The notes under the pieces were generated by a model, which made no database searches, was not told where the DNA came from, and was given only the letters and a program-made list of their open reading frames with translations. Made by a program: the position numbers and the translations under genes. DNA of 64,000 bases from assembly GCA_012976225.1 (NCBI GenBank), contig JAAVVG010000017.1, forward strand, positions 591,822 to 655,821, in the 5' to 3' direction. The DNA comes from Golubevia sp. BC0850. Lineage: Eukaryota; Basidiomycota; Exobasidiomycetes; Golubeviales; Golubeviaceae. How positions within the stretch are numbered: the stretch's first letter is position 1; each line of letters begins with the position of its first letter. Of this stretch, positions 19,463 through 57,758 are shown piece after piece.

Positions 19463-21655
19463 ATGTTACAAGTTCAAGCTCTAAGCTCGTTCGTGACGTT
19501 GGCTCTTCTAACCTCTTCCGCCGTCCAAGCCGCCACTTCCCACAAGAAGCAACAACAACTTTTCTTGGACGGAAAAAAATTACCCAAGGATTTCCTCTAC
19601 GGATGTGGAACTTCAGCCTACCAAATCGAAGGAGCAACAGGTGAAAAGGCGGAAGGAGGAAAGGGGTACTCGGTGTGGGATACTTTCGCTCACGATACTG
19701 GCAAAGGTCACATTTTTGTGAGTCATCTTTAATACAATAGTCAACGACTAGAAGACTAACTCAGGCCTTTTCTGCTTGATTCTCTGCTTTTGTAGGGAGA
19801 CGTCAATGGAGACGTAGCTATGGATTTCTATCACACTTATCCAAAGGATCTTCCTATCTTCAAGAAAGCTTTGGGAGTTGGTCTATACGATTTCACCATC
19901 GCTTGGACTCGGTGGTTCGCCAATGGAACTGGCACCGAGCCTTTGGAAGATGGAGTCAGATTCTACAAAGACATGATTAAGAAGACTCATGACAATGACA
20001 TGCTGGCTAGTTGCACTTTGTATCACTGGGATATCCCTCAAGCTTTGGAAGACAAGTATGCTGGCTGGACTTCAAAAGATGTCGTCAAAGACTTTGAGCA
20101 TTACGCTAACGCAGTCTATGACAATCTAGGAAAGGATTGTGACATTGTGAGTTCTTAGGAGGGGCTGAATCTGCCCGGCGATTCCCTCTGACTCCTCGTC
20201 TTTCTCTCTTTTGCTTCCTTGCTTCGAAGTGGGTCACTATGAACGAGCCAAGAACCTTCTGTGTAGAAGGGTGAGTCTTAGGACGTTAGGAGCTGAAGGA
20301 CTTTCAACCAAGTACTGACGACTCGACTGACTGTCGATTCTCTCTTCCACCCCTCCCTCTCTGACTCCCGATATCTTCCTTTCCATAGCTATGGACCTGA
20401 TACTGATTCAGCTCCCGGTAGAGAGGGCCCGATCGAAGACACCTACAAATGCATGCGTAAGTCTCTAATTTTGATCAGTCATCTCTAACTCCTTTTTTCC
20501 TAGTCTGTCGCCAGACCTTATGAAATCTTCCAGTACCTTACTTCTGACTTTGTCTTCTTTTTTCTCCGCCTTCAGACAACGCTCTTCTCTCTCACGCCAC
20601 AGCAGTCAAGCTCTTCAGAGAGAAGAAGGAAGCAGGCATCGTCAAAGGGAAAATCGGCATCAAGTTAGATGGATCTCCAGCTTTCCCTCTCAATGCTTCA
20701 GATCCTTCCCACATGGACGTGATTGAAAGAGCCAATGATTTCGAGATTGGATGGCCCACTGGACCGATCTACTCTGGAGACTATCCTCAAGTTATGAAAG
20801 ACACTATGAAAGAAAGATTACCCACTTTCACCCCTGAAGAGAAAAAACTGTCAGTCACGACTCTCTGGGTCACCAGCACCACTCCCTTTCTGACCATCCC
20901 CTTCTTCTCTATTCATCCTTCCACAGTCTGAAGGAAAGCGGCTCTGATTTCGTAGCTTACGATGCTTACACTTCTCAGTGGGTCTCTCCTTTAGCTGAAG
21001 GTGAAGCTTGTGAGTATGGTGATGATACCTGGCCAACCTGCTTGAACTCCTACAACAAGAATCCTGATACGGGAGCTTTGATTGGTAGACCTACAAAGTC
21101 TCCTTGGAACTTCCAAGCCAACGACACCATCTGTGAGTCCTCTTTCTGGACCATTCCTTCCCTCGATCTCTTCTAACAAAGGACCTGTCTTCCCTCTTTC
21201 AGTTAGTGGATCGAAGTACTTCCACGAGAGATGGGGTGTCCAAGACATTAGGATTGGAGAGAATGGACTCGCTGTCTCAAATGAAACGCAGCTACCGATT
21301 GCAGAGATCGTGAATGACATTGACAGAATCGAATGGTATCGACAAGCATTGACGAACATCAAGTGGGGATTGGACTACGGCTTGGTGAGTTCACGCATCT
21401 TTGAAGGAAACTTTATCAAAATGAAGTCTGACATCTGACGTGCCATTCTTCTTGCCTTTCTACCTTCAGCCGATCACCGGATGGATCCCTTGGAGTTGCA
21501 TTTCAAATCTAGAATGGTCTTCGGGTTATGTCAATGACTTTGGTATGATCCACACTCTTCCCGGTTTGAATCAAACCAGAACTCCAAAGAAGAGTACGGC
21601 CTACATGAAGGGGGTCATGACCAAAGGAAATCCAATAGATCCTTTCAACTTCTGA
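19463..21655 (+). CDS. Secreted family 1 glycoside hydrolase (beta-glucosidase-like)
   Basis: Predicted 520 residues from eight exons (19463-19717, 19796-20146, 20230-20270, 20389-20456, 20576-20849, 20927-21132, 21203-21384, 21470-21655). Residues 1-23 form a signal peptide. GH1 landmarks: [14 protein letters not shown] near the N-terminus, [16 protein letters not shown], the acid/base motif TMNEP (Glu about 208) and the nucleophile motif IGENG (Glu about 418; ITENG in most relatives), then [12 protein letters not shown] near the end. It should cleave beta-glucosides or related sugars outside the cell or in the wall. Several NxS/T sites are present. Exon 3 is only 41 nt and carries the acid/base residue. 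Confidence 0.95.
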
Positions 21656-22109
21656 TTTTCCCATTCAGATCTCTACTCATGGACAATTTCGTTCCCTCTT
21701 CACGACCCTTAATGCTCAATGCCTCCTGTTCATGCTTCGTCTCACGAATCTCATTTTACGATACTCCCCTTTTCTCTCTGTTGATCTTTCGTCTTCAAAA
21801 CTATTTGAATCTGATTCCGTCTTTCCCAGCTTTGACAGGCTCTCGAATTGGTTATCTTGTTTGCTGTGGCGATGTCAGCTAGCTAATGATTGCCACTTTT
21901 GCTTAGTGTATGTATTTACAAGGTCTACGTAAAAGGAAGAAGGGAAAAGAGGTCGATTGCGTATTGAATGAGGCATCAGGAGAGGTTCATTGAAAGTCTG
22001 CAGTCGTTGATTCGAAAAGTAAGATGAGATTGGAGGAGTGAAACTGAATGACTCAAAAATTGAAAAAGCAGCAGTAGAAGTAGAAGTAAAGTTGCAGATC
22101 TTGAGGAAC
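21656..22109. other. Convergent intergenic region
   Basis: This lies between the GH1 stop and the stop of the minus-strand epimerase. No gene is seen; probably the two 3' untranslated regions. Confidence 0.5.
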
Positions 22110-39278: not shown

Positions 39279-40056
39279 GGGGCGACTTTCAAGGGAATCT
39301 TTTAGGAATTCCGCTCTTCTTCTCGCACTTCTAGATAGGTCTCGGAGTTTGTCATGCATTTATTCCTTCGAAATTGTATTTTAGTGTATTTCAGTGTATT
39401 TTGTTCTCTGTTCTTCTTTTCCTGAAAGTGTGTACACTGTATCACCTTCGCACTGCCGGCTCTCTGTACAGCTGGCATTTGGCATCCCTTCACACGTTTG
39501 CTTCAAAACGGATTCTACCCACTCCAACCGTCTCGCTATCTCCAAGGATAAAATATTATCGGCCACCTTTTTGATTTTTCCCCCGCAGAACAGACCCAAG
39601 CCTTAAGCCTTGAGCGACTACTGATTGAAGGGGAGGTCGGCTGCGATCCGAGCATAGCAGAAATAAGAACACCCTCATAAACTTTGAGCATTTAGTTATT
39701 TTACCCGTATCCAATAACTAAAACGTGTTCAACGTTCACTGTGAGCAGTTCTGAGCCTTCCTCTCACTAACTTTTTCAGGGGCATGGCCCAAAAGTGTTC
39801 GAGTTGGTGCCAAGTGAAGCCTCGAAGGCCAACGCATTTGACTTATCCTATCTTATTAAAGATCTCATAGGGGTACTCCTAGCTGAGCTATAAAACGCCG
39901 TGAGAGATTTCAAAACTCACTTCCCTCACCCTTAAAGTCACCAACTCTCTCTTCTTCCTTTTCTCTAAAACTTCGTAGCTGGCCTACTTATCTTTCAACT
40001 TTAGTCTTCCTTTAATTTCTTTCATTAAACCCTCCTTTCTCAAATCCCATTCAACG
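39279..40056. promoter_or_regulatory. Upstream region of the secreted repeat precursor
   Basis: About 780 bases with no supported gene. The last 120 bases before 40057 are pyrimidine-rich and contain ctataaaacg (about 39888-39897), a good TATA box 160 bases before the start. A strong regulated promoter is inferred. Confidence 0.5.
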
Positions 40057-42108
40057 ATGCAACTCCTTAAATTAGCATTACCCCTTGCTTTCGTCTCTGC
40101 TTTGGCCTCCGTGTCTGCTGCGCCAGTCCAGGTGAGTCTACGACCTTCATCCTGTCAAAAGTTCGGAGACTATTTCACTGATTCTTTATTCGGGCTCTCC
40201 TCTGCTACCTCTGATAGGAGAAACGTATGGCAGTCGGAAACGAGAACCTCATCGTACACAATCCAAACTGGTATGAAGATTATCTCAGACTGTACAAGAA
40301 CAAGAATGTCGAAGCCAGAGATGTCCAAGACCTCAATGCTCGTGATCTCGAGAGAAGACTCGGAGGATTTGCAGGTGAGTCTACGTAACATTACGGTTGA
40401 CAGCCTCTTTTCAGCCCTTCAAGTCCTGATCTCCCTCTACCCCCCCCTTTTTCGACCTTCCCCCTTGAAAGGTGCTTTCTCCCTTGCTCTTCCACTCTTT
40501 GCAAGCTTCATCACCAAGAACAAGAAAGAAGTGAGTGTTTCCCCCTTTTTCGGAACCTTCTTCGCAGCACGCCTTTGATTCATTTCCCTTCTCTCATCGT
40601 ATAGGCTCTCAACGACGACGATCTGAACGCTTTTATCTCGAAGATGGCGGAGGACTTCGATACTCCTGAGAAGAGACAAGACCTTCACCCTGTCACCAGA
40701 GACGTCGAAGACCTCAATGCTCGTGATCTTGAGAAGAGACTCGGAGGATTTGCCGGTGAGTCTACATAACATTACGGTTGACAGCCTCTTTTCAGCCCTT
40801 TCAAGTCCTGATCTCCCTCTACCCCCCCCTTTTTTTCGACTTTCCCCCTTGAAAGGTGCTTTCTCCCTTGCTCTTCCACTCTTTGCAAGCTTCATCACCA
40901 AGAACAAGAAAGAAGTGAGTGTTTCCCCCTTTTTCGGAACCTTCTTCGCAGCACGCCTTTGATTCATTTCCTTTCTCTCGTCGTCGTCTAGGCTCTAAAC
41001 GACGATGATCTAAACGCTTTTATCTCGAAGATGGCGGAGGACTTCGATACTCCTGAGAAGAGGAGACTTCCACCTGCTGCGGTTGCTCCTGTTGCTCAAA
41101 AGTCGTTCTTCACCTTGAAGAATGCCGCGATCGGATTAGCTTCTGCTGTTGGAGGATGTGAGTTGAATAGACGACTGATTATTAATTTCTCTAAGTCTCT
41201 TCTAACCAAGTCTCTTTGCTCAATTTCCCTTCAATCTGCAGGGTTCACCACCAAGGAAGGTGGGTGTTTGAAGATCTTTTGCTTTCCTTTTGAATCTTTC
41301 AGTGACTTAGATCTCTCCCTTTCCGGTCTTTCACTCCTGCAGGTCAGGACTTCTTGCTTTCAGATGAGGGACAAGCCTTCGCATCAAAATTAGCTGAGGA
41401 TTCGAACGACGAGGTCTTGAAGAGAGCTCTGTCCGAGATGACTGGAGAACTTGAGAAGAGAAGACTTCCACCTACTGCGGTCGCTCCTGTTGCTCAAAAG
41501 TCGTTCTTCACCTTGAAGAATGCCGCGATCGGATTAGCTTCTGCTGTTGGAGGATGTGAGTTGACGCACGACACAAGACTGAGCTTCGATCCTTTGAGAA
41601 TTGATCTGACGACGCTTCTTGCCTCCTTCGTTTTCCCGAACTACAGGGTTCACCACCAAGGAAGGCGAGTAAAGGAACAGTCCACCTTGTTTCTCATCTC
41701 TTCGGACCCAGCTCACGTATCTCACCGTCTCGATTTTCACTCACAGGTCAAGACTTCTTGATGTCATCTGATGGTCAAGCTTTCGTATCTAAGCTAGCAG
41801 AGGATAATGAGGTCTTGAAGAGAGCTCCTCTCAACTCCGCAGGATTTGTAGGAATGACTTTGGGAAGGTGAGTTTCTGGAGGTGGAAGTTGTGGAAGCGA
41901 AGCGACGGTCCATTACCCTTCATTCTCCAATTTTAACCTTTACTCTTTCCTAATCTTTTTCAGTGTCATCAAGAGCTTATTCTCTGGTACCAACAAGGCG
42001 CCAATGAAGAGAGAATCTGCCGATGACTCTTATGAACTTCTCTCTGCCCTCGAGCGTCGTTCAGCTCAAGTCCACCCAGACCTTGACCTTCTAGGATTGG
42101 ATTTGTAG
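40057..42108 (+). CDS. Secreted Kex2-type repeat precursor with tandemly duplicated exons
   Basis: Predicted 393 residues from eleven exons: 40057-40131, 40218-40374, 40472-40530, 40605-40755, 40856-40914, 40992-41157, 41242-41259, 41343-41555, 41647-41664, 41747-41867, 41964-42108. All joins keep phase. Residues 1-21 form a signal peptide (MQLLKLALPLAFVSALASVSA). Eight to nine dibasic Lys-Arg or Arg-Arg sites cut the rest into predicted peptides of about 44, 49, 21, 49, 64, 12, 62, 31, 16 and 15 residues. The two 49-mers (start LGGFAGAFSLALPLF, end DFDTPEKR) are identical. The 64- and 62-mers (start LPP.AVAPVAQKSFF, then WFTTKEGQDF) are near identical. Each large peptide has a hydrophobic or amphipathic front and an acidic rear. 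The architecture is that of fungal Kex2-processed repeat proteins; the function is unknown. One intron has a GC donor (41665). Confidence 0.85.
40318..41062 (+). repeat. Tandem exon-intron duplication A (two units, period about 381-385 nt)
   Basis: Unit 1 (about 40318-40677) and unit 2 (about 40701-41062) each hold the end of one exon, an intron, a 59-nt exon, another intron and the start of the next exon. The 59-nt exons (40472-40530 and 40856-40914) are identical and the introns are nearly so, which indicates a recent duplication. Confidence 0.9.
41063..41760 (+). repeat. Tandem exon-intron duplication B (period about 398 nt)
   Basis: The block encoding LPP.AVAPVAQKSFFTLK plus the 18-nt exon and the following QDFL exon start occur at about 41063-41360 and again at about 41460-41760. 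Exons are almost identical, but the introns have clearly diverged, so this duplication is older than A. Confidence 0.85.
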
Positions 42109-57113: not shown

Positions 57114-57758
57114 TTAAGCCAATCCAAGAGCTTCTTCTAGCTCTGTGAGCCCTAATGCGTCCAAGACGGCAGTTAAGTTCCCTCCAAGAGCCTCATCTAG
57201 GACTGCCTCCAAAGCAGTAATGCCAACAGTGTCCTCAAAGAACTTGATCAAGTTTCCTATATTCTGAATCAAGCCGTCTGGAAGTGGGTCGTCTGAGCCA
57301 AGTCCAAGGCCTTGTTCAGCTTGAGTAAGTCCTAAGGCTACTTCGAGATCAGACTGCAGAAAGAGTGATGACTTTGAGTTAGCAGAACCTTCGACACCTT
57401 GAGTCCATTTTACACTCACAATAGTTCCTCCACTGATGGCATCGAGTGCTTCTGAGACCGCAGTGACGCCAAAATCGTCTTCTAAAGTTTGAATTAGCTT
57501 TCCTATAGATTGGATGAGACCTGTTTGACGACGGTGGAGATAGGAAGCTAGACTCTCGCGAGTGTAGTACTGAGCCTGCGGATTGAAAAGAGAGAAGAAA
57601 GAAGAAATAGATGATGAGGCTGTGTGGGAGAAAGTTCGAAAGATTCATCACAAGGAACTCACAGCGACGCCACCATTGTCGACATTGCCAATTGAAGAAA
57701 TTGGGGAAGCAATGGCGACGCGAGCCAGAGCAACAAAGAGCAAGAATTGAAAACGCAT
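57114..57758 (-). CDS. Secreted protein with a duplicated ~53-residue helical unit
   Basis: Predicted 163 residues from three exons (57758-57663, 57575-57420, 57353-57114). Signal peptide MRFQFLLFVALARVAIA. An RR site (LHRRQ) precedes two copies of a unit: GLIQSIGKLIQTLEDDFGVT ... and GLIQNIGNLIKFFEDTVGIT .... Both continue with a leucine-rich A.LGLT.LE/AE..LGL end. Intron 2 (57419-57354, 66 nt, with a gctaac branch motif) has no stop and is a multiple of three; removing it is what makes the two units align. No cysteines after the signal. The units look amphipathic and helical. Family unknown; a cell-surface or secreted role is inferred. Confidence 0.78.

Follow-up and report, generated by a model that had tools for sequence, protein, structure and literature searches.

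Closest described systems

The closest described counterparts of the gene treated here are the Kex2-processed repeat proteins (KEPs) of fungi. The gene occupies positions 40057-42108 (forward strand) of a 64,000-nucleotide (nt) stretch of the Golubevia sp. BC0850 genome, called the window throughout, which forms the end of contig C8 (its final 64 kb) in an assembly of 25.77 Mb and 64 contigs; its 5′ leader carries a small hairpin that recurs before other secreted-peptide genes. Published definitions of KEPs, which are the subject of three papers (PMC6339444, PMC7329392, PMC9769878), demand three or more similar repeats. For yeast-like Basidiomycota, long KEP peptides, of 25-50 residues and more, have been reported (PMC6339444), and expansions in single genomes reach 18.5 per strain (PMC7329392). 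The window gene shares with KEPs a signal peptide (by a hydropathy rule rather than SignalP, as for all signal peptides below), repeated blocks between dibasic sites, a Kex2 protease gene in the genome and a layout for which no UstYa is needed. Its repeats, of 49 and about 62-65 residues including Lys-Arg, lie within the KEP limit of 100 residues; instead of three or more similar repeats, however, it has two A and two B units, i.e., two pairs. Judged from its sequence, the gene would work like a KEP, and it differs from KEPs in belonging to a mosaic precursor family that shares unit types and a common leader hairpin. The accessible text of the same three papers does not describe a shared RNA element for KEPs.

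Precursors of ustiloxin-type (dikaritin) ribosomally synthesised and post-translationally modified peptides (RiPPs) likewise have secreted repeats with Kex2 sites. The genome differs from those systems in having no UstYa/DUF3328 match over the cut-off in a genome-wide, exon-wise search (best 14.5 bits against 25), and we therefore rejected a cyclised, ustiloxin-type RiPP; the original prediction, a reading of the DNA letters without database searches, had seen no modifying-enzyme gene beside the precursor and is supported here. Also alike by description is Rep1, the repellent of Ustilago maydis, a Kex2-cut precursor of peptides several tens of residues long that form amyloid-like surface fibrils.

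At the RNA level the nearest relative is the Smaug recognition element (SRE), given in the accessible portions of two papers as a base-paired stem, free in sequence, with a loop written CNGGN or CNGGN0-4 (PMC4053848, PMC9893680). The leader hairpin shares this form, and the genome encodes Vts1, the fungal Smaug. Unlike the SREs described in these papers, the hairpin lies in a 5′ leader and marks one product class; where an exact site passes our signal-peptide rule, 54-150 nt separate it from the start codon.

Our preferred reading, to which we give a probability of roughly 55%, is that the gene encodes a multi-peptide precursor of a mosaic family with a leader hairpin that places it under Vts1. 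The signal peptide would be removed and Kex2 would cut the Lys-Arg and Arg-Arg sites in the Golgi, releasing two A peptides, two B peptides and one C peptide, probably linear. The mRNA leader would present a CUGGC loop on a 4-bp stem, one of a class of hairpins (C(U/C)GG(U/C) on a covarying stem of 3-5 bp) that stand before about 40 secreted-peptide genes; Vts1 would bind these hairpins and may repress or destabilise the mRNAs jointly until the peptides are needed. As far as sequence can tell, these genes most likely form a Vts1-type post-transcriptional regulon. A wider proposal, for which we would offer slightly less than even odds, is that about 40 Kex2-peptide genes are controlled post-transcriptionally by a 5′-leader Smaug-type hairpin read by Vts1, and that promoter, leader, signal-peptide exon and unit exon groups recombine so that new members join the regulon at birth.

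The hairpin that links the family genes goes beyond the original prediction, and we found no report of an SRE-type element in the 5′ leaders of some 40 secreted-peptide genes among the papers listed in literature searches that covered few subscription papers and not bioRxiv. The roles and timing of fungal KEP peptides are largely obscure; in Coprinopsis, knock-outs of six KEPs had no apparent phenotype, according to the accessible part of the report (PMC9769878). A shared cis-element locates such genes independently of protein sequence, which helps in listing them and in finding their regulator. If the proposal holds, removing one gene would perhaps shift many secreted peptides at once, and Smaug/Vts1 would have a regulon devoted to a single clear product class, its elements being placed in 5′ leaders.

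The leader hairpin and its placement

Upstream of the start codon lie two features:

39889-39894, forward strand: TATAAA box, 168 nt upstream of the ATG
39975-39987, forward strand: leader hairpin GTAG-CTGGC-CTAC, with a 4-bp stem and a five-base CNGGN loop, 81 nt before the ATG

In a fold prediction of the window-gene leader the hairpin is the sole element. The string TAGCYGGYCTA was first noticed as shared between leaders of paralogues; the window has a single exact copy, the one in this leader, plus one copy with a mismatch, of which 1.1 are expected by chance. Its core, YAGCYGGYCT, was scanned over the family loci (242,723 nt, both strands) and occurs 23 times; 14 of these read in sense towards a modelled family ATG 61-147 nt downstream. 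A search of the whole genome gives 32 exact matches to GTAGCYGGYCTAC, the DNA downstream of each being read, and none to the reversed pattern. A signal-peptide ATG follows 54-150 nt downstream on the same strand at 24 of these 32 sites, compared with 103 of 4000 random window positions; the count applies our own fixed signal-peptide rule, includes locus L067 and misses L074, where a signal peptide is visible by eye. Ten of the 32 stand upstream of unit-family loci. Among loci that were found by the hairpin (L053-L055, L068, L069, L072), several are dibasic precursors with other repeats, so the hairpin is not a passenger of one coding family. At loci found by protein homology the core stands in sense before the signal peptide in 22 of 32, as against 0 of 32 for the opposite-strand reading and 0 of 8 for the reversed core.

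Altogether we count about 40 genes, a figure obtained from 44 sites by dropping L067, which looks false, and three sites that are the second in their gene (L025, L026, L043). Across the 44 sites the second loop letter is U in 31 and C in 13, and the fifth is U in 35 and C in 9. In 10 of 22 cases a TATAWA sequence precedes the hairpin core by 77-98 nt (background 43/5000); this distance, taken with the usual spacing from TATA box to transcription start, suggests that the hairpin is transcribed. Two other predicted window genes with signal-peptide-like starts by eye (19463-21712 and 57114-57758) have no exact hairpin, which fits specificity in a sample of two.

Some leaders depart from the common pattern. 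Two hairpins stand in the leader or just upstream at L025, L026, L043 and L066. The leaders of L020, L021 and L042 are without a CYGGY hairpin and share, by eye, AAGAAGTCT followed by pyrimidines, perhaps a second leader element. At L057 and L058 (C7:134879 and C7:139129), exact hairpins lie about 4 kb apart on opposite strands with no signal peptide by the rule, and the next long open frame at L057 resembles a membrane protein. An Ssd1-type pyrimidine motif was set aside as only slightly enriched in the leaders of the family, with 2.0 occurrences per 160 nt against 1.4.

Paired changes in the stem

The stem varies between sites in a paired manner. The pattern HTAGCYGGYCTAD excludes G-C at the fourth stem pair; in its 25 genomic sites this pair is, by hand count, another Watson-Crick pair in 16, where 8.1 are expected from base make-up, a count matched or exceeded in 8 of 20,000 permutations. 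Signal peptides follow 11 of the 16 other-paired sites and 2 of the 9 unpaired ones, a T-G site being counted with the latter (Fisher p 0.041), and the signal-peptide rule is passed by each of the six A-U and three U-A sites. A second set comprises 22 sites selected by protein homology together with the signal-peptide rule; the search pattern prescribed the CNGGN loop and two inner pairs and left the outer part of the stem free. Here, Watson-Crick pairing at stem positions 3, 4 and 5 is seen in 20, 15 and 11 of 22 against 13.6, 6.6 and 4.4 expected, and at each position none of 10,000 permutations reached the observed pairing; at positions 6-8 of the same sites there is no excess. With the identical sites of L038 and L039 merged, the 21 distinct rows give a covariation score of 0.299, compared with 0.101 when shuffled and at most 0.129 when slid, and 81.9% paired cells, compared with 68.7% and at most 41.9%.

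These data bear on the reading that the element acts as DNA, being a palindromic transcription-factor site or downstream core-promoter site of co-expressed secreted-peptide genes. The fairly fixed TATA spacing at 10 of 22 sites would suit such a site, as would the short stem and a leader energy that is not below that of shuffled sequence. A DNA dyad would not, however, be expected to occur in a single orientation, to change pairwise at stem positions 3-5 or to precede signal peptides preferentially when its fourth pair is intact. A dimer-binding site would account for the palindrome, yet neither for the paired stem changes nor for the single orientation; we regard a DNA site as unlikely.

Vts1 as the candidate reader

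By sequence and structure the hairpin agrees with an SRE, having a C(U/C)GG(U/C) loop and a stem that covaries at positions 3-5. The genome has four SAM_2 matches, one of which, at C2:131892, matches Vts1 chains in the PDB with E 1.4e-16. The RNA-contact residues of yeast Vts1 listed in the accessible portions of the SRE papers are R464, K467, Y468, L496, G497, R500 and K501 (PMC4053848, PMC9893680), and by our own reading of alignment and spacing all seven are present in the protein from C2:131892. In yeast, Vts1 triggers deadenylation, decapping and decay of SRE-bearing mRNAs, as the accessible part of PMC3468468 describes.

It is also conceivable, with odds about as low as those of a DNA site, that the hairpin is a real RNA element read by another RNA-binding protein, or that it tunes translation with no dedicated protein. 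The assignment to the SRE class follows from a consensus match, and the second and fifth loop letters are restricted to U or C, a tighter pattern than the CNGGN of the literature. Set against this, the published Smaug consensus is just such a free stem with a CNGGN loop, and the genome's own Vts1 has the complete set of contact residues. Less probable again is a hairpin without function, carried along passively when promoter, leader and signal-peptide exon were duplicated as one piece. Passive spread would suit the match between the window gene and paralogue L038, which share 71 of 75 nt in exon 1 while their units differ; the stem letters nevertheless change pairwise around a constant loop, and the signal peptides and bodies behind the hairpin are very diverse. 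Identities between paralogues in their leaders and introns, which depend on free end gaps and a small number of columns, carry no weight here.

Several observations weigh against control by Vts1 through a leader hairpin. Shuffling does not make the window leader less stable, since 180 of 200 shuffles equal or exceed its stability (z +1.23). The hairpin is missing from 5 of 15 family leaders, 8 of the 32 exact sites have no signal peptide by the rule, and among the other 24 L067 looks to be the interior of another gene. The stems, as tabulated, mostly have 3-4 pairs, and a scan for stems of at least 5 bp gave one CNGG hairpin before a modelled family gene. HTAGCYGGYCTAD itself shows no overall excess (25 sites against 23 for the reversed control), and sites with C-G as fourth pair precede signal peptides in just 2 of 7. 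Two of five covariation measures, namely pairs changed on both sides and further pair types, are not above shuffles, and since paralogous leaders are related, significance from shuffles and permutations is overstated. Finally, SREs are described in 3′ untranslated regions and reading frames, not in 5′ leaders, in the accessible portions of PMC4053848, PMC9893680 and PMC3468468.

The precursor and its predicted processing

Spliced by hand, the gene has eleven exons and encodes 393 residues with no internal stop, and a purpose-written Viterbi gene finder returned the identical eleven exons. Its codon scores were trained on long open reading frames and its splice weights were set after these introns had been seen, so that the agreement is only partly independent. 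The introns measure 74-100 nt, nine being GT-AG and one GC-AG. The eleven-exon frame with a signal peptide that the original prediction proposed is thus borne out, and the product runs in the order signal peptide, first block (MAVGNENLIV...), A1, A2, B1, B2, block C and a tail ending DLDLLGLDL. All parts are on the forward strand:

40057-40131, forward: exon 1, signal peptide MQLLKLALPLAFVSALASVSAAPVQ, with a phase-0 intron at its end
40218-40358, forward: first block, MAVGNENLIV...ERR; MAVGNEN and YLRLYKNK also occur in paralogue L008
40359-40676, forward: unit A1, residues 73-121, in three exons
40740-41063, forward: unit A2, residues 143-191, identical in protein to A1
41064-41425, forward: unit B1, residues 192-256, including an 18-nt exon (41242-41259)
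41462-41823, forward: unit B2, residues 269-331, including an 18-nt exon (41647-41664), then the GC donor
41824-42012, forward: block C, APLNSAGFVGMTLGSVIKSLFSGTNKAPMKR, with a relative at C8:52.9k
42061-42108, forward: C-terminal tail SAQVHPDLDLLGLDL plus stop; D-(F/L)-D-(L/I)LG-type ends also occur in paralogues

The two 18-nt exons in the B units have the same coding sequence. Antisense to the A units runs a 185-codon open frame from stop to stop (40437-40994, reverse strand), probably a by-product of composition and repeats.

Lys-Arg sites bound the repeat blocks, and past residue 24 the precursor contains 12 Lys-Arg or Arg-Arg pairs against a shuffled mean of 2.35, with none of 10,000 shuffles reaching 12. 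The Kex2 gene, one gene with both a subtilase and a P domain, lies at C5:266.5k (Peptidase_S8 E 9.8e-40, P_proprotein E 5.3e-16). This excess and this gene support the predicted Kex2-type layout. An uncut protein, whose repeats would act as one secreted chain such as a wall or surface protein with incidental dibasic pairs, could account for two repeat pairs in place of a long array, but it is the least probable alternative given that excess and the Lys-Arg or Arg-Arg pairs that also mark unit borders in paralogues whose units are quite unlike its own.

Repeat units

The A copies are identical over all 49 residues and the B copies at 52 of 57 residues up to SKLAED, in agreement with the two identical and two near-identical blocks first proposed. 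At the DNA level the gene contains repeats of 161 nt at 97% and of 113 nt at 97% identity. Introns are 96-98% identical between the A copies and 65-69% identical between the B copies, from which we read the A copies as a recent tandem duplication that took its introns along, and the B copies as an older one in which the introns diverged and the protein was held. Coding differences between the A copies are five synonymous and no nonsynonymous; the B copies have dN 0.052 and dS 0.239 over 57 codons. Both peptides look to be under constraint, and because all five differences within the 49 codons of A are synonymous, its identity does not appear to reflect recency alone. The duplicated exon groups have a phase-1 intron at both ends and can therefore be added or swapped with the frame intact. 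The mosaic family may have been built in this way, unit-sized exon groups being duplicated and passed from one precursor to another.

The front half of unit A has a charge of +1 and a mean hydropathy of +1.39 and the rear half -5 and -1.09; by hand count, unit B1 carries +4 up to TTK and -7 beyond. The hydrophobic or amphipathic front and acidic rear of the original prediction are thereby upheld, and the same division is seen in 12 of 15 tabulated peptides from the window and paralogues (front +1 to +3, rear -3 to -10), the other three being the window B units, whose rows were miscut in the table and are unused, and block C, which is without an acidic rear. Full units have a cationic hydrophobic front, which would be membrane- or surface-active and kept soluble by the acidic rear. 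Units A and B are weakly linked through paralogue L018, which matches both (E 0.003 and 3e-7).

The family in the home genome

Single-protein queries (unit A, unit B, block C and four paralogue peptides) found at least 28 loci with related units in the home genome, the window gene included, at E 0.01 or better, with matches within about 3 kb merged and E-values referring to this one genome. The claim of no known family therefore holds for named families but not for relatives at home. In Pfam even the best hit, DUF2501, stays below the curated threshold (20.6 bits against 21), PDB and IMG/VR gave no named family for the precursor peptides, Rfam gave no match over its cut-off (best 21.8 against 55), and six peptide strings from the precursor do not occur in the searchable literature. 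The near-threshold DUF2501 match was rejected as chance, because single units of the window or two paralogue units do not reproduce it.

Many family loci were modelled as secreted precursors with units separated by Lys-Arg or Arg-Arg, in machine-made gene models of which several are partial. Unit types are reused across precursors in differing order and company. Fifteen chosen sequences have a common rear motif, approximately K-E-x-x-D-F-L...F-x-S-K-(L/M)-A, in which K, E, F, S and K are invariant. Three loci (C61:123k, C18:335k and C61:878k) have stops inside the matched stretch, for which either introns or decay may be the cause.

A C-terminal D-(F/L)-D-LLG, or something close to it, is frequent among the precursors, and a tail of this type is common to precursors with different units (window 42061-42108, L008, L009, L021, L023, L041-L043, L052 and L070); it is perhaps a sorting or folding signal. 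Elsewhere in the window, the gene at 57114-57758 (reverse strand) encodes a predicted secreted protein of 163 residues with one Arg-Arg site and two related halves, GLIQSIGKLI... and GLIQNIGNLI....
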